From: Liolophura sinensis
Taxonomy: Eukaryota; Mollusca; Polyplacophora; Chitonida; Chitonidae
Assembly (NCBI RefSeq): GCF_032854445.1
Contig: NC_088305.1
Coordinates: forward strand, 1,185,001 to 1,249,000
Reading direction: 5' to 3'
Length of the DNA stretch: 64,000 nucleotides
Shown here: positions 8,441-51,400 of the stretch, one piece after another
Layout of the letters: every line of letters begins with the position of its first letter
Position numbering within the stretch: position 1 is the stretch's first letter
The notes under the pieces: generated by a model
Told to the model about the DNA's origin: nothing
Seen by the model: only the letters and a program-made list of their open reading frames with translations
Databases searched by the model: none
Position numbers and translations under genes: made by a program

Positions 8441-8500
8441 CTTTTGTTGACTCAGTGGACTGGTGAATCTCTGAAGAGAATTTGCTGTGCAATAAAAAGT

Positions 8501-8723
8501 CATGTTGTACTGACAGGCAGTTCTTGTTTATCCATTCCCACAGCCCTGGCTGCAGGATCAAGAAGCAATCTTAGTCATGTTGTACTGACAGGTTCCTCTT
8601 GTTTATCCATTCCACAGCCCTGGCTGCAGGATCAAGAAGCAATCTTAGTCATGTTGTACTGACAGGTTCCTCTTGTTTATCCATTCCCACAGCCCTGGCT
8701 GCAGGATCAAGAAGCAATCTTAG
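8501..8723. repeat. 75-bp tandem array, 3 copies
   Basis: Three copies start at 8501, 8576 and 8650 with CATGTTGTACTGACAGG and end with GATCAAGAAGCAATCTTA. Each contains TTATCCATTCCCACAG, a pyrimidine-rich AG block resembling a 3' splice site. Confidence 0.9.
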
Positions 8724-36264: not shown

Positions 36265-36426
36265 TTATCGTTTCCTTCTAAATTTGGCAAGGAAAAATCC
36301 TATGGTATCAGTGTTCCAATCTGAGTGTGTTTTCACAGAAGCTCCTGGGTCAAACCGCTGCAGCAGTTGTAGTTGTTCTCTGGACAGTTTGGTACCCTCC
36401 AGGCCTGGCTGACCTACATAGGGAGT
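36265..36426 (-). CDS. NSUN6: NSUN6 exon 11 (C-terminus)
   Basis: The acceptor TTTTTTCTTGCAG is followed by residues 409-461 and TAA (36265-36267). It includes KLSREQLQLLQRFDP and the conserved NSUN6 ending DTIGFFLAKF. The 32-bp array of intron 10 starts directly at the acceptor's pyrimidine tract. Confidence 0.93.
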   Translation of the reverse strand, partial: TPYVGQPGLEGTKLSREQLQLLQRFDPGASVKTHSDWNTDTIGFFLAKFRRKR

Positions 36427-39400
36427 CTGCAAGAAAAAAGTACACATCAAGACAAGGGACAAAATAGCAAAGTACACATCAAGACAATAGACAAAATAGC
36501 AAAATAGCAAAGTACACATCAAGATAAGAGACCAAATAGCAAAGTACACATCAAGACAATAGACAAAATAGCAAAGTAGGCCTACACATCAAGATAAGAG
36601 ACCAAATAGCAAAGTACACATCAAGACAAAACACAAAAAACTGCAAAGTACACATCAAGATAAAATACAAAATAGCAAAGTACACTTGCATACAAGAGAC
36701 AAAATAGCAAGGTACACAAAAATACAAGAGATACATACAAGAACACATCAAGACAAGACACAAAATAACAAAGTATACATCAATACAAGAGACAATACAG
36801 CAAAATACACATAAATACAAGAGACAAAAACAAAAGGTACATATCAATACAAGAGACAAAATTGCAAAGGTACACAACAAGAGACAAAACAGCAAGACAC
36901 ACATCAATACAAGAGACAAACTAGCAAAGTACACATCAATACAAGAGACAAAACAGCAAGGTACACATCAACACAAGAGACAAAATAGCAAGGTACACTC
37001 AATACAAGAGACAAAACAACAAGGTACAAATCAATGCAATATGCAAAGTAGCAAAGTACACATTAACACTTGAGTCGAAATAGCAGTACACACCAACATG
37101 GGGGACAAAATAGCAAACATTTAGAGTACAGATAAGTTGAAGAGACAAAATGGCAAAGTCTTCCCCATTCCCGTATTTTTATTCTACCATAGGACACCTG
37201 TCATATTCCTGTTACCTGTTCAATAAAATATGATATTTGTCATTTATTATAAGCAGCTGAAGTTATATTACAAATATTTGTAGATTTTTTACCTTACTTT
37301 TACTATTATGATGAGAAATATTATCTCAGATTTAGAAGCAAAGGTTATCAAAGAGCTTGCCTATACGAGACGCATGAATGCAAACTTCAATAATATATTC
37401 AATAACATAAGTAAACTGAGTAATCTGTGGTAATTAATATACAAACAGAGCATCAGTGATGGACCATCTTTAATTCTCATGCCCCTGTGCTTTATATACA
37501 TATAAAACTTCAGGTCAATAGGCCTACATCTAGCACTTTTTGAGATATCACCCCTAACATTTACTTTGACATTAATACTAATACACACGACACAAGTAAG
37601 TCATGAATTTTGTAATTTGCCACACTTAATACGCAAACAGCAGATTAATGACCTCATATCATTGTGCAAATCCTGAGCTCAATACATGAAGTATTTCTTA
37701 AAATATCACCCCTTACATTTTGTATTATTACATCAATAATAATAATAATAATGATTCAAACACACTGTATTTAATCTGCACACAGTGAATCAATGATGGA
37801 ACATCCCCTTCATGTTACTGTGTTCTATATATGTGTAAAATCTGAGCTCAACACACGCACTACCTATTAAGATACAATACCTGAAATGTTTAACACTGCT
37901 TTCCTTGACGCTGATGCTTGAAGTATGACATACTCTACACCTATACTTTGTACAGGTGAACTATAAATTGAACAGTATATCTGTGTTCATTCTAATAAAG
38001 AAAACACAGAATTTAAATTTTTTTAATTTTACTCAGTTCGGGCTATATTGCAAAAAAAAAAAAAAACTTTAGGAAAATTTCTCTTCAATGTCAACTTAAA
38101 CATATAGAGCAAGTGTCAAGGGAGACCACCTCAGCTTCATGTTGCTGATCAAGAGTTTTCCCCCCTCCTTCATCATGGTTGGTGCCAGACATAAACATAC
38201 TATTGATGGTTTAGGCCGCACTCAAGAATATTTCAATAATATTTTATTGCCAAGGTGGCCAGCACCATGGTTGAGGGGAAACCAGGCACAGTCTGTGGAA
38301 AACCCACCACCATCCATATACACAAATGGAATTTAGAAATCTAGCTTCGTGTTTGTATTTAGTGATCAAATTCTAATGTGACAATATGGTCAGAAGAGAC
38401 CACCGTAAAATCCCCTGCTTCAGAGACATTTTACTTCATTAAAAAACAAAACCAAAAAATCAGACAATTTTCCAGCACAGTGTTCCAAAGCCTTTCTGAC
38501 ACACATTTCATGTTTCTGTTTTCTTTCCCTTAGAATATTTATAAGATTATAATATTTCTCTCGTTACCTGTTGCTCAAGCTGTAGGTCAGGGTAGCTCTT
38601 CAGAACCCACTCCACTTGACCCTCATTCTCCTCAATGGGTAAGGAACAGGTACTGTACACCAACACTCCACCAGCCTTCACTAACTCAACACCCTGTCAA
38701 CAGATACACATGGAGTCATATCCAACACTCCACCAACCTTCACTAACTCAACACCTTGTCATTAGATACACATGGAGTCATGACCATCACTCCACCAGCC
38801 TTCACTGACTCAACACCTTGTCAACAGATACACATGAAGTTATAACCAACACTCCACCAGCCTTCACTGACTCAACACCTTGTCAACAGATACACATGAA
38901 GTTATAACCAACACTCCACCAGCCTTCACTAACTCAATGCTCTGTGAACAGATACACATGTAGTCATAACCAACACTCCACCAGCCTTCACTAACTCAAC
39001 ACCCTGTCAACAGATACACATGTAGTCATAACCAACAATACACCAGCCTTCACTAACTCAACAACCTGTCAACAGATACACATGTAGTCATAACCAACAC
39101 TCCACCAGCCTTCACTAACTCAACACCCTGTCAACAGATACACATGTAGTCATAACCAACACTCCACCAGCCTTCACTAACTCAACATCCTGTCAACAGA
39201 TACACATGGAGTCATAACCAACACTCCACCAGCCTTCACTAACTCAACACCCTGTCAACAGATACACATGTAGTCATAACCAACACTCCACCAGCCTTCA
39301 CTGACTCAACACCCTGTCAACAGATACACATGAAGTCATAACCAACACTCCACCAGCCTTCACTAACTCAACACCCTGTCATCAGATACATATGTAGTCA

Positions 39401-42400
39401 TAACCAACACTCCACCAGCCTTCACTGACTCAACACCCTGTCAACAGATACACATGAAGTCATAACCAACACTCCACCAGCCTTCACTGACTCAACACCC
39501 TGTCATCAGATACACATGTAGTCATAACCAACACTCCACCAGCCTTCACTGACTCAACACCCTGTCAACAGATACACATGAAGTCATAACCAACACTCCA
39601 CCAGCCTTCACTAACTCAACACCCTGTCAGCAGATACACATGTAGTCATAACCAACACTCCACCAGCCTTCACTGACTCAACACCCTGTCAACAGATACA
39701 CATGTAGTCATAACCAACACTCCACCAGCCTTCACTAACTCAACACCCCGTCAACAGATACGCATGTAGTCATAACCAATACTCCACCAGCCTTTACTGA
39801 CTCATCGCTCTGTCAACAGATACACATGGAGTCATATCCAACACTCCACCAGCCTTCACTGACTCAACACCCTGTCATCAGATACACATGGAGTCATATC
39901 CAACACTCCACCAGCCTTCACTAACTCAACACCCCGTCAACAGATACACATGGAGTCATAACCAACACTCCACCAGCCTTCACTAACTCAACACCCTGTC
40001 AACAGATACACATGGAGTCATATCCAACACTCCACCAGCCTTCACTAACTCAACACCTTGTCAGCAGATACACATGTAGTCATAACCAACACTCCACCAG
40101 CCTTCACTGACTCAACACCCTGTCAACAGATATACATGTAGTCATAACCAACACTCCACCAGCCTTCACTAACTCAACACCTTGTCATTAGATACACATG
40201 GAGTCATGACCATCACTCCACCAGCCTTCACTGACTCAACACCCTGTCAGCAGATACACATGAAGTCATAACCAACACTCCACCAACCTTCACTAACTCA
40301 ACCTGTCAACAGACACACATGTAGTCATAACCAACACTCCACCAGCCTTCACTAACTCAACACCCTGTCAACAGATACACATGTAGTCATGACCATCACT
40401 CCACCAGCCTTCACTAACTCAACACCTTGTCATTAGATACACATGGAGTCATAACCAACACTCCACCAGCCTTCACTAACTCAACACCTTGTCATTAGAT
40501 ACACATGGAGTCATGACCATCACTCCACCAGCCTTCACTGACTCAAAACCCTGTCAGCAGATACACATGGAGTCATAACCAACACTCCACCAGCCTTCAC
40601 TAACTCAATGCTCTGTGAACAGATACACATGTAGTCATAACCAACACTCCACCAGCCTTCACTAACCAACACCCCGTCAACAGATACGCATGTAGTCATA
40701 ACCAATACTCCACCAGCCTTTACTGACTCATCGCTCTGTGAACAGATACACATGTAGTCATAACCAACACTCCACCAGCCTTCACTGACTCAACACCCTG
40801 TCAACAGATACACATGAAGTCATAACCAACACTCCACCAGCCTTCACTAACTCAACACCCTGTCATCAGATACATATGTAGTCATAACCAACACTCCACC
40901 AGCCTTCACTGACTCAACACCCTGTCAACAGATACACATGAAGTCATAACCAACACTCCACCAGCCTTCACTAACTCAACACCCTGTCAGCAGATACACA
41001 TGTAGTCATAACCAACACTCCACCAGCCTTCACTGACTCAACACCCTGTCAACAGATACACATGTAGTCATAACCAACACTCCACCAGCCTTCACTGACT
41101 CAACACCCTGTCAACAGATACACATGTAGTCATAACCAACACTCCACCAGCCTTCACTAACTCAACACCCCGTCAACAGATACGCATGTAGTCATAACCA
41201 ATACTCCACCAGCCTTTACTGACTCATCGCTCTGTCAACAGATACACATGGAGTCATATCCAACACTCCACCAGCCTTCACTAACTCAACACCCTGTCAA
41301 CAGATACACATGGAGTCATATCCAACACTCCACCAGCCTTCACTAACTCAACACCCTGTCAACAGATACACATAGAGTCATATCCAACACTCCACCAGCC
41401 TTCACTAATTCAACACCCTGTCAACAGATACACATGGAGTCATATCCAACACTCCACCAGCCTTCACTAACTCAACACCTTGTCATTAGATACACATGTA
41501 GTCATAACCAACACTCCACCAGCCTTCACTGACTCAAAACCCTGTCAGCAGATACACATGGAGTCATGACCATCACTCCACCAGCCTTCACTAACTCAAC
41601 ACCCTGTCAGCAGATACACATGAAGTCATAACCAACACTCCACCAGCCTTCACTGACTCAACACCCTGTCAACAGATACACATGTAGTCATAACCAACAC
41701 TCCACCAGCCTTCACTGACTCAAAACCCTGTCAGCAGATACACGTGGAGTCATAACCAACACTCCACCAGCCTTCACTAACTCAACACCTTGTCATTAGA
41801 TACATATGTAGTCATAACCAACACTCCACCAGCCTTCACTGACTCAAAACCCTGTCAGCAGATACACATGGAGTCATGACCATCACTCCACCAGCCTTCA
41901 CTAACTCAACACCCTGTCAGCAGATACACATGAAGTCATAACCAACACTCCACCAGCCTTCACTAACTCAACACCTTGTCATTAGATACACATGGAGTCA
42001 TGACCATCACTCCACCAGCCTTCACTGACTCAACACCCTGTCAGCAGATACACATGTAGTCATAACCAACACTCCACCAGCTTTCACTAACTCATCGCTC
42101 TGTCAACAGATACACATGTAGTCATAACCAACACTCCACCAGCCTTCACTAACTCAACACCCCGTCAACAGATACGCATGTAGTCATAACCAATACTCCA
42201 CCAGCCTTTACTGACTCATCGCTCTGTCAACAGATACACATGTAGTCATAACCAACACTCCACCAGCCTTCACTGACTCAACACCCTGTCAACAGATACA
42301 CATGGAGTCATAACCAACACTCCACCAGCCTTCACTAACCAACACCCCGTCAACAGATACGCATGTAGTCATAACCAATACTCCACCAGCCTTTACTGAC

Positions 42401-45400
42401 TCATCGCTCTGTGAACAGATACACATGTAGTCATAACCAACACTCCACCAGCCTTCACTAACTCAACACCCTGTCAACAGATACACATGTAGTCATAACC
42501 AACACTCCACCACACTAACTCAATGCGTCTTTTAGCCATGTTTATTAAGTTTCATACTACACAAGTAGTGTAAAATCAAAGACTTCATTGATACTTAATA
42601 TTTCGACACACAGTTTGGTGATCATCAGGGGAGGAAATCTTCGTTTTTACACTATGTGTATATTACATAAATCTTGTCACTGGCACTAGCAGATTACAGA
42701 CAAATATACACCCAAACACCCAATTCTTCAAGACTTACATATTACATATATTAAAAACAACATGATTTTTTTTGAAAATACTGAATTGGCTAAATACAGT
42801 GCATATACAGACATTGCTAGATTTGTCCACCAGAACTATGATAATCATTCTATTTTTCAGTATTTATTGCTAAGATAATAGCTGGGTAACAGGTGGATGA
42901 CACATAAACAAAGCCCAGTGCACACGGACAACATTTGTTCTCAAGAATGTCATTTTGTGGTGCAGGTAACAACACGTCTTCACAATACGGCCATGTGTGG
43001 GCAACTGTATGTACATCAAGAATTCCTAACCAACTGGTCTTCACAATTTGGCCCATGTGTGGGCAACTGTATGTACATCAAGAATTCCTAACCGACTGGT
43101 CTTCACAATTCTGCTCGTGTGTGGGCAATTGTATCTACACCAAGAATTCCTAACCAACTGGTCTTCACCAATTTGGCCCATGTGTCGGCAACTGTATGTA
43201 CATCAAGAATCCTAACCGACTGGTTTTCACAATTTTGCCATGTGTCTGGGAACTGTAGGTACATCAAGAATTCCTAACCAACTGGTCTTCACAATTTGGC
43301 CCATGTGTCGGGAACTGTAGGTACATCAAGAATTCCCTTACCAACTGGTCTTCACAATTTGGCCCATGCTGTCGGGAACTGTAGGAACATCAAGAATTCC
43401 TAACCGACTGGTCTTCACAATTTGGCCCATGTGTGGGCAACTGTATGTACATTAAGAATTTTTAACCGACTGGTTTTCACAATTTTGCCCATGTGTCGGG
43501 AACTGTAGGTACATCAAGAATTCCTAACCAACTGGTCTTCACAATTTGGGCCCATGTGTCGGCAACTGTATGTACATCAAGAATTCCTAACCAACTGGTC
43601 TTCACAATTTGGCCCATGTGTCGGGAACTGTAGGTACATCAAGAATTCCCTTACCAACTGATCTTCACAATTTGGCCCATGTGTCGGGAACTGTAGGTAC
43701 ATCAAGAATTCCTAACCGACTGGTCTTCACAATTTGGCCCATGTGTGGGCAACTGTATGTACATTAAGAATTTTTAACCGACTGGTTTTCACAATTTTGC
43801 CCATGTGTCGGGAACTGTAGGTACATCAAGAATTCCCTAACCAACTGGTCTTCACAATTTGGCCCATGTGTGGGCAACTGTATGTACATCAAGAATTCCT
43901 AACCAACTGGTCTTCACAATTTGCACATGTGTCGGGAACTGTAGGTACATCACAAATTCCTAACCGACTGGTCCTTCACAATTTGGCCCATGTGTTGGCA
44001 ACTGTATGTACATCAAGAATTCCTAACCGACTGGTTTTCACAATTTGGCCCATGTGTCGGGAACTGTAGGTACATCAAGAATTCCTAACCAACTGGTCTT
44101 CACAATTTGGCCCATGTGTTGGGAACTGTAGGGTACATCAAGAATTCTGAACCGACTGGTCTTCACAATTTGGCCCATGTGTGGGCAACTGTAGGTACAT
44201 CAAGAACTCCTAACCGACTGGTCTTCACAATTTGGCCCATGGGTCGGGAACTGTAGGTACATCAAGAATTCCTAACTGACTGGGTTTCTTCACTAGAGTC
44301 TTCAAAAGTGGACAACAAATGTTGCCTGTCTGCGGTGCTAGATATTCTGGATGATTTGAATACAGAGATCAGAAAATCCTATTTTCAAGAGAAAACGTTG
44401 TTTGTGTGTGTGCCGGGCTGAATGGCTTTTGCTACAGTTACGTGTACATGTACACACAAATCTAAAACATGATGTGCATATGATCATCAAGTATTAACAT
44501 AAAGCTTACCACTGCTAAAAGTTTGCGCTGGTATTTTGGGTATGACTTCAATTCCTTTGCTGTCATTTTATTCCTGAAGGAAGGCCTCTGTCCTAGTGCA
44601 CTACACGGAGCGTCCACCAGGACTCTGTCAAAGGAACATGCTGTGAATGGTGGTCCTCCGCCAGCATCTGGTAAAGGGAAGCAACTCCATGTCATCATGT
44701 CGCAAACCATGCATGCAAATGAAACACTGGCTGAGTTTTACCCACACAGTTGCAGAGTCAACGTGTATGATGCTGTCCAACTGGACCATCATAAGTCAAG
44801 GAAACAGTCACTGAGTTCAGTGATTTCAATATCTCAACTTTCATTTACTTATTTATTTATCTGATTGGTGTTTTTACACCGTCCTCAAGAATATTTCACT
44901 TTAAATATGCAACGGCAGCCAGCGTTTTGGAGGGAGGAAACCAGGTCTCAACTTTCAAAAATTAACTCATAATTAGGAGAAGTGTATTTGTCTATACATA
45001 TGAAATTCACAAATGCCATCTAGTTCAGGGATTGGGTCATTAGTTTTGCAAAAGGATTATGAAAGCTGCTCACAACATTCACACAACGAAGGACGATTCA
45101 CACAACGAAGGACGATTCACACAATGAAGGATGATTCACACAATAAAGGACGATTCACACAATGAAGGACGATTCACACAATGAAGGCTGATTCACACAA
45201 TGAAGGATAATTCAGACGATGGCTGTAGAGGACAACAAAGAATGCTGATGATAACACAGTTTGAAGTTTTAATTAATCGGCAGAAAGCCATGTATTATTC
45301 TCAGGCTCTTCTCAGTCTCCTCCCACCATAATTCTGTCCGCCGTCGTATCAGTGAAATATTCTTGAGTACAGCATAAAACAAAAATGAAATACATAAATA

Positions 45401-48400: not shown

Positions 48401-51400
48401 GGGGGGGGGAGTGACAGGGTCAAACTATCTCAGACAACTGCATGGGCATTTGCATACATAGGACTGGACCTTCACATATCTGACCTGCATCCTCACACAA
48501 TGCTTTTGACGCATCCCACACGTATCCTTCCACACAAGATAGTCCCCATCTTTGACAGTTCTGGTAAATTTTCTGCACTTTTTGAGGTGACTTGTCTAGT
48601 GCAACAACACGACCCTGCAATGAAACAGAAATGTGATAATTTATATGTACTGCACCACAGCAGTGTGATAATTTACACCAACACATGTGTGATAATTTTC
48701 TACAAGAGAAGTGTGATAATTTACTACAAGAGAAGTGTGATAATTTACTACAAGAGAAGTGTGATAATTTACTACAATACAGATGTGATAATTTACCACA
48801 AATAAACAAATAAATATGATAATTTACTACAACACAACAATGTGATAATATACTACCATACAGATGTGTGATAATTTACAGCCATAGAGATGTGTGATAA
48901 TTTACTACAATACAGCAATGTGATAATTCAAAATAACACAGCAAAGTGATAATTTACCACAATACAGCAATTTGATATTTCTCTACAACACAGAAGTGTG
49001 GTAATTTAGTACCATACAGATGTGTGATAATTTACTACAATACAGATGTGTGATAATTAATAAGAGGAGTGTGATAGTTTACTACCATACAGATGTGTGA
49101 TAATTTACAAGAAAAGTGTGATAATTTATTACATACAGATGTGTGATAATTTACAAGAGAACTGTGATAATTAACTACCATGCAAATGTCTGATAATTTA
49201 CAAGAAAAGTGTGATAATTTACTACCATACAGATGTTTGATAATTTACAAGAGAAGTGTGATAATGTACTACCATGTAGATGTGTGATAATTTAAAACAA
49301 TGCACGTGTCATACATTATTATAAGAGGAGTGTGATATTTTACTACAATACAGATGTGTGATAATTTACTTAAATACAGCAAAGAGACAATTTACAGAAA
49401 TTAAACAATGTGATAATCCACAGACATACAGCAATGTGGTAACTTCATGAAATAAGTTTGACAAGTTACTGAAAGTTGAATAAGTTTGAATAATTTGTTG
49501 AAAAACAACCATTTCATAATATATTGAAATACATTACTGAAAAATATTGCAGTTTGACAACTGACTGATACACATAAGAGGCATAATGCAACAATGACAT
49601 ACACAAACATGATCGTTTGCTGAGTTTGTTACATGTTTTATGAAACCTGTGATCGTTTCATCAAACAAAACTAGTTGAGGTAATTAGCACAATCAGCCAT
49701 ACGGGTAAGTGTATTAAAAAGTAATTTGGACATTTTTTTACTAATGCATGATCATCTATTCTACCCCCCCCCCCCACCCACCGCTGTTATTTGCGGGGCC
49801 GTGTGCAAAAATACATATTAAACACAGATGACATTTCAAACAACATCAAGTGTGGCACATAACACATACCTCCCCAAATAATATCAGTTCATGTTCATCT
49901 ACAAATGAGAGAATTTGAACCTGTTTACTTGTTAAATTCACTTTTATGATTTACATAAACGTGAACTTACAGAATTTCCTTCAGTGATAAAAGTGTTACT
50001 ACGCATGGTTTCTAGATATCGGTTTGGTTTTTACATTTTTGATAATTTAGACCCAGACGCCATGACTAGGAAAAAAGTTTGTTTTTTTGTTTCATGATAT
50101 TCCAGTCTGAGCTCAGCGATATGACGTCAATAGATGTACAGTGGAATTTTACATTCCTGCATCACACAACAACAAGACATGACGTCATACATACATGTAC
50201 GCAGCTTGGAAATGTCTAGGTCAACTTCAATGGAATAAGCTTGCCATTGATTGGTCAAAAATGCATGACGTCTGTGGAGGGAGTTACAAAGAACAGCAGC
50301 AAAAAAGCTGCATGAAATATGCCGTTTTTGCCTTATTTTCTTATGTTTTCACGGTAGAATAGATTTTAACACTTGTGTTGTGGTGTTTGTTGTGTAACCT
50401 GATAGCTTGTTTTTGTACCGAGTCAAAATCCAAGAAAGCACATCGGGTGACACAACAAACACCGCTACAGTAGTCTTAAACCCTTAGTTTAACTTCTATC
50501 TCTACCATTCTTTTTATGCGATAATTTGCATGTGACCTAATGGTTAGCAATTTAGTATGGCACAATGACCCAGGAGCCTCTCACCAATGTGATTGTCGTG
50601 AGTTCAAGTCCAGCTCATTCTGCCTTTCTCTCCAATTGTATGTGGGAAGGTCTTCCAGCAACCTACGGACGGATGAAATATTCTTGAGAATGGCATAAAA
50701 CACCAATCAAATAAGTAAATCACAAGTGGCATCGGGTGGTTGGATTTTTCACCGCGACTGATGTATGGCTTACACTAATGCATGTTTTACCTCATTTTTC
50801 ATCAGACAGGCAATGTGCGAAGTTTTTCCACCTGAAGTATACAAAAGATTAGAAGTGTTAGTGAGTTGATTTCCAGCCTAAACACTCTGTTCACAGGTGT
50901 ATCATACTCTATAAAAATATTCAAACAAAACATAAGTATCAAAACATAAGTATCAAAACATAAGTATACTTCACTCCTACAAAAGTAAATCCTGCTCAGC
51001 AATGACCACATAACATAAAAAGAAAAGACAACAAATAATATAATTATTCAGTTATTGCAGAAATAGGGTAAAGAAGAGATCTGAACGATCACAGAACATT
51101 TTTTCTGACATTCTTGATAACTAACTATATATATAAATCTCTTAATCTGAAATTCTTATGAAGCCTTTCGATACGCCATGTTAGAGCAATCGGAAATGTG
51201 ATGTCTCGACACTCGTACGCGGGGGTTTAGCCAGAGGGGTATCTTGGAGATGCCCTAGTTCTCGGCAGGCAAAATTAACATGGGAGAGATAGGGAAATGG
51301 GATTAAATAAGGGAAAGTTATGCTTTCAAAACTTGGGATACTTTTTCGATGCACATATACATTTTGTGTACTGTTGCCAGGGCTCAAAGTTCTCCATACA

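Follow-up and report, generated by a model that had tools for sequence, protein, structure and literature searches.

A 62-unit minisatellite duplicating the NSUN6 intron 9/exon 10 boundary in the chiton Liolophura sinensis, and its likeness to the amphioxus mirages

Minisatellites that duplicate intron/exon boundaries have been described in amphioxus as "mirages"; they occur on acceptor and donor sides, vary in copy number from one haplotype to another, and leave regular splicing undisturbed, to judge by the Adh3 data and the globin RT-PCR given in the available portions of that report (PMC3087553). Similar repeats are present in PGBD5, in a report whose available portions cite Adh and troponin C as being without aberrant mRNA (PMC3902484). 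The array that we describe here, in the chiton gene NSUN6, is like these amphioxus cases (Adh3, troponin C, the globins BflGb6 and BflGb9, and PGBD5) in consisting of tandem boundary copies, many of which retain their AG or GT. It differs from them, as they are given in the same portions, in that its host is a mollusc and not a lancelet, in its copy number (62 units vs. 6 and 3 in the BflGb6 haplotypes), and in its unit length (62 bp vs. 150-160 bp in BflGb6, 157 bp in BflGb9, 10-72 bp in Adh3, and 60 and 108 bp in PGBD5); moreover, some of the amphioxus cases were also examined for their mRNA and for changes in length. In human segmental duplicates, variable internal tandem repeats, some of them minisatellites at exon-intron boundaries as in NSUN6, can alter gene structure (PMC2812944), but these have ~30-bp units, with 4 repeats on average, and lie in recent paralogues, and an array with dozens of acceptors is absent from the available part of that report. 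A further likeness is with decoy exons, such as those in OGT, which favour intron detention: they too are intronic splice sites able to engage the spliceosome (PMC12017769, available part). Unlike those exons, the NSUN6 array has acceptors without good donors, as scored with a generic matrix. The decoy exons of intron detention carry both splice sites. Among the open-licence papers listed, we found no boundary array in a chiton or another mollusc by title and start of abstract; a paper on cone snail gene structure mentions minisatellites once in its available part (PMC3862624), and a text find for "minisatellite" in a comparative genome paper on chitons gave zero occurrences (PMC12005716). The new element is a 62-unit boundary array in a mollusc, of a kind already known from amphioxus.

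The HiFi assembly used here was published as that of Liolophura japonica (PMC11068029), with the species later corrected to L. sinensis (PMC12441733). The window, i.e., the whole stretch of DNA that we analyzed, comprises 64,000 nucleotides (contig C11:1185001-1249000), and the assembly searched contains 609,464,459 bases in 632 contigs. A gene on the minus strand of the window encodes NSUN6, an RNA-modifying enzyme: exons 9, 10, and 11, when joined, match the NSUN6 of the solved structures 9imb and 5wwq, which we take to be the human protein, with an E value of 2e-38, in a gap-free match over query residues 1-129 of 148 that includes both the exon 9/10 and the exon 10/11 join. This match bears out the preliminary description of this DNA, which had assigned the repeated boundary to NSUN6 exon 10. 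The features of the locus, and of two further boundary arrays in the same genome, are listed in Table 1; no non-coding RNA family in the window was matched in Rfam at the gathering threshold.

Table 1. Features of the NSUN6 locus and of boundary arrays at two other genes (positions are those of the window unless a contig is named; acceptor scores are from a generic matrix)
Feature	Position	Strand	Details
NSUN6 exon 11 (last), coding part	36265-36426	-	
32-bp array	36437-37117		ends 10 nt ahead of the coding part of NSUN6 exon 11
NSUN6 exon 10	38568-38693	-	126 nt, 42 codons, GVELVKAGGVLVYSTC...LEQQ; donor GTAACG; nt 1-35 make up the exonic portion of the repeat unit
62-bp minisatellite, intron 9/exon 10 boundary of NSUN6	38659-42512	-	62 head-to-tail units
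Working acceptor	38694-38720	-	TATGACTCC...GTTGACAG, within unit 62
Three decoys nearest exon 10	38754-38880 (first bases 38754, 38816, 38878)	-	all AAG; scores -0.38, 2.52, 2.52 vs. 6.68 for the working acceptor
Other 58 decoy units	38941-42470 (first to last predicted exon base)	-	
Second 62-bp minisatellite	42976-44283	-	21 copies, same intron as the first; acceptor-like CCTACAG
NSUN6 exon 9	44510-44667	-	donor gtg/GTAAGC at 44510, partner of the exon 10 acceptor
NSUN6 exon 8	48485-48614	-	
Degenerate ~24-26 bp array	48615-49379	-	directly ahead of exon 8; exon not entered
NSUN4 boundary array (L012)	C1:44068685-44071777; match C1:44070185-44070277	-	array at 1113-1489 of the turned locus; 88-bp units, 4.3 copies
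CCT3 boundary array (L081)	C8, match 53405971-53406162	-	array at 1646-2106 of the turned locus; 66-bp units, 7 copies

Our analysis confirmed the minisatellite of about 60 copies of a splice acceptor and exon start that had been described in a single NSUN6 intron. TRF reports a period of 62, with 62.2 copies and 91% matches, and splitting the array by hand gives 62 units, i.e., 59 of 62 bp, two of 61 bp, and one of 59 bp, with 38 distinct sequences among them. Each unit comprises 27 nt of intron end (TATGAC...ACAG, with the acceptor and a branch-like TATGAC) and then nucleotides 1-35 of exon 10, and this exon part, previously put at ~34 bases, ends directly ahead of the codons for YSTC. The real exon was correctly located at the downstream edge of the array, since the last unit runs at its downstream side into exon 10. 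With the real copy counted, the first 35 nt of exon 10 occur 18 times exactly and 53 times with up to three mismatches. A copy of the array elsewhere in the genome, which had been named as evidence against a link with NSUN6, did not appear among the best candidates scored in a search of the assembly with a 301-base probe, where 28 of 28 matches lay at C11:1223500-1227512, i.e., in exon 10 and the array itself, a count of best candidates that leaves the rarity of the sequence unproved. The exon part of the unit codes for a conserved portion of NSUN6, and the gene therefore probably gave rise to the array rather than the other way round.

The preliminary description held that every unit carries CTGTTGACAG; this overstates the case, as the sequence occurs exactly 28 times. 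A CAG in register is present in 45 of 61 decoys, a weaker AAG one base later in 10, and no AG in the remaining 6. We scored splice sites with generic acceptor and donor matrices, which call for caution, in that the real acceptor of exon 6 scores just 1.84. By this generic measure, the working acceptor of exon 10 (6.68) lies above that of exon 6 and below five of the six other NSUN6 acceptors (8.13-12.48), the CAG decoys (n = 45) score 4.39-7.28, and 22 AGs in the array equal or exceed the working site, which means that acceptor strength alone cannot pick the site. No decoy acceptor was found to have its own downstream donor in the array, where the best GT scores 5.85 with the generic matrix, compared with 7.41-12.05 for six NSUN6 donors. 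Decoy exons and stepwise (recursive) splicing were rejected for this lack of donors, with the AAG/GTGTTG that is present in ten units reaching only 4.36 on the same generic scale. With no good donor in the array, the donor of exon 10 would most likely be the only partner open to a decoy acceptor, and exon definition would favour the nearest acceptor. When paired in this way, all 55 decoys with an AG reach a stop after 12-201 nt, and a step of 62 nt shifts the frame (62 = 2 mod 3), both in line with what had been proposed before.

Comparison of the units with one another demonstrated that the sequence of unit 62, the site of the working acceptor, recurs unchanged in decoys 20 and 41, down to both of its differences from the consensus. 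This identity suggests either sequence exchange between the working acceptor and the array or an origin of that acceptor from the array. Across 59 units, the two AG positions show a pi of 0.13 and 0.29, above the unit mean of 0.08, in a sample where unit variants spread by copying and mutations are not independent; since the AG sites are more variable than the unit mean, we see no sign of the decoys being kept. Weak or dead decoys number 16 of 61, and the three nearest exon 10 are all weak (hypergeometric 0.016; 1 of 61 circular shifts), a pattern that was spotted post hoc and in which units 59 and 60 differ little from each other. As selection and chance are not separated here, the weakness of the nearest decoys is a lead only.

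The window is rich in tandem repeats, with TRF arrays of period ≥10 covering 33% of it, compared with 7% of the exon-centred loci L004-L074, two of which are themselves inside the window. Random placement of 12 merged arrays in the gene part gave a mean of 2.76 crossings of seven exons, where one is observed (P for one or fewer, 0.14), with the end of exon 8 taken as 48482 instead of 48485 and with arrays that cover a whole exon counted as crossings. The observed crossings do not exceed the random expectation, and exon overlap therefore needs no special cause; the unusual feature is the copy number.

Based on these findings, we consider it probable that the NSUN6 array is a mirage-type minisatellite, i.e., a neutral by-product of a minisatellite-rich stretch, in which the last acceptor is chosen by exon definition. 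The array would have arisen when a 62-bp segment lying by chance across the junction of intron 9 and exon 10 was duplicated in tandem, and amplification would then have brought it to 62 units. Exon definition would pair the donor of exon 10 with the nearest good acceptor, i.e., the last unit, and the upstream decoys would be removed as intron, so that exon 10 is presumably spliced correctly. The decoys would drift, with those near enough to compete having been weakened or being weak by chance, while the working acceptor would share in the turnover of the array, which would need no function of its own. Of the two outcomes set out in the preliminary description, the one in which only the last copy works, having a donor adjacent to it, fits best with the predicted donors, the best GT in the array scoring 5.85 and six donors of the gene 7.41-12.05 on the generic matrix. 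The nearest full-strength decoy (38941) would give an exon of 374 nt, not clearly too long for definition, and the 45 CAG decoys could see use at some rate.

The other outcome was that repeat number or splice choice tunes NSUN6, which in its fullest form would have some transcripts use decoys as poison acceptors, leading to a premature stop and nonsense-mediated decay, with array length as a rheostat that sets the NSUN6 level. The early stop met by every decoy with an AG and the 22 array AGs that match or exceed the generic score of the working acceptor would both accord with this, but any frame-shifting repeat would be expected to give early stops, the acceptor sites have no special conservation among the units, the best-placed competing decoys are weak, and the amphioxus cases are reported, in the available portions of both papers, to splice normally (PMC3087553, PMC3902484). 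We therefore found no support for tuning, rejected tuning by repeat number as the leading view on account of the variable decoy acceptors and the weak nearest three, and regard the poison-acceptor route as distinctly unlikely. A benefit of another sort, in which the copies form a reservoir for repairing a damaged working acceptor by conversion or slippage, would explain why the working unit matches decoys 20 and 41 down to both non-consensus differences; turnover at the end of an array requires no such benefit, however, and 16 of 61 decoys would pass on a weak or dead site, which makes a repair role distinctly unlikely.

For amphioxus globin genes, boundary repeats have been proposed to lead to a gained intron or a new exon, in the available part of the report on them (PMC3087553); that the NSUN6 array is an early step of this sort seems very improbable, as the matrix finds no good donor in the array and no unit looks able to serve as an exon now. 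We give hardly any credence to an assembly artefact: this is a single haploid assembly, but the mean HiFi read of 8,347 bp at 14x, as given in the available part of the genome report (PMC11068029), is longer than the 3.85-kb array, and the 38 distinct units are mixed, with no stretch of at least four consecutive units recurring identically at a fixed lag. The mean distance between units is nearly flat with lag (0.070-0.081).

Our survey of the same genome identified boundary arrays at two further genes, one on the acceptor side of NSUN4 and one on the donor side of CCT3. We cut 87 loci, of which five (L001-L003, L005, and L014) lie inside the window, leaving 82 others, and considered TRF arrays with a period of at least 15 and no more than 120 nt from the domain match, with crossing of an exon edge judged by eye. 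Boundary arrays were present in 2 of these 82 loci, i.e., in 2 of 22 NSUN/CCT loci, some of which overlap one another, and in 0 of 60 kinase/RRM loci, a weak test in that many of these look single-exon or like near-identical copies. We left uncounted an array of 21 bp x 2.2 that lies upstream of the match in L009, at a distance of about 100 nt, and one of 15 bp x 1.9 inside an open frame in L034. Outside NSUN6, 59 exon places were listed, 30 of them inside the 22 loci with 150-nt flanks; 3 of these 30 have an array within 100 nt, two over the exon edge and the third (L004) read as intronic. A separate search for duplicates needed overlap with the domain match and so missed NSUN4; it listed L063, which on reading is an inner RRM duplication.

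In NSUN4, the unit contains the acceptor CCCTGTCAG and ~25 nt of the exon start, and CAG is kept in 3 of 3 decoys, unlike the weak near decoys of NSUN6. In CCT3, the unit contains the exon end and the donor CTCAG/GTGTGT, and the frame is open across six decoy donors, each of which would add 22 residues. Taken with NSUN6, these are tandem arrays whose units are within the range of tens to ~160 bp (62 bp and 62 copies in NSUN6), whose unit spans an intron/exon boundary with its splice signal (27 + 35 nt in NSUN6, with an AG in 55 of 61 decoys), and which affect several genes on both sides (acceptor in NSUN6 and NSUN4, donor in CCT3). By the sequence features tested, the chiton arrays are of the mirage kind.

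The presence of the NSUN6 array and of two more among 82 other chiton loci, a small sample, suggests that boundary minisatellites are not confined to lancelets but form wherever introns are rich in minisatellites. The NSUN6 array offers tens of near-identical acceptors in equal steps before one exon, i.e., a natural experiment on splice-site choice, and CCT3 provides a contrast, as its decoy donors would add residues in frame at each step whereas NSUN6 decoys with an AG would all bring a stop. We also put forward, as a possibility that we hold to be rather doubtful, that chitons are a second animal lineage in which minisatellites often swallow splice sites, that the working acceptor of NSUN6 is the current last unit renewed by turnover instead of a fixed ancestral site, and that selection keeps decoys within ~300 nt weak. 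If this were true, the array would offer a natural ladder of competing acceptors, spaced 62 nt apart, from which the reach of exon definition could be read.

Other arrays in the window also carry splice-like motifs. In the second 62-bp array of intron 9, 0 of 84 AGs are as strong as the working acceptor on the generic matrix; by eye, it has no common sequence with the first, and we take the equal period to be a coincidence. It contains two donor-like ttg/GTAAGG sites, at 43341 and 43654 on the minus strand, which score 7.95. In the degenerate array ahead of exon 8, many units have TTGTAG or GGTAG as their final bases, and by eye the true acceptor of exon 8 resembles a last unit of the array. 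On the plus strand, at positions 8498-8723, where no exon was identified, a 74-bp unit is present three times with a strong acceptor-like TTTATCCATTCCCACAG, which is short of a C in one copy.
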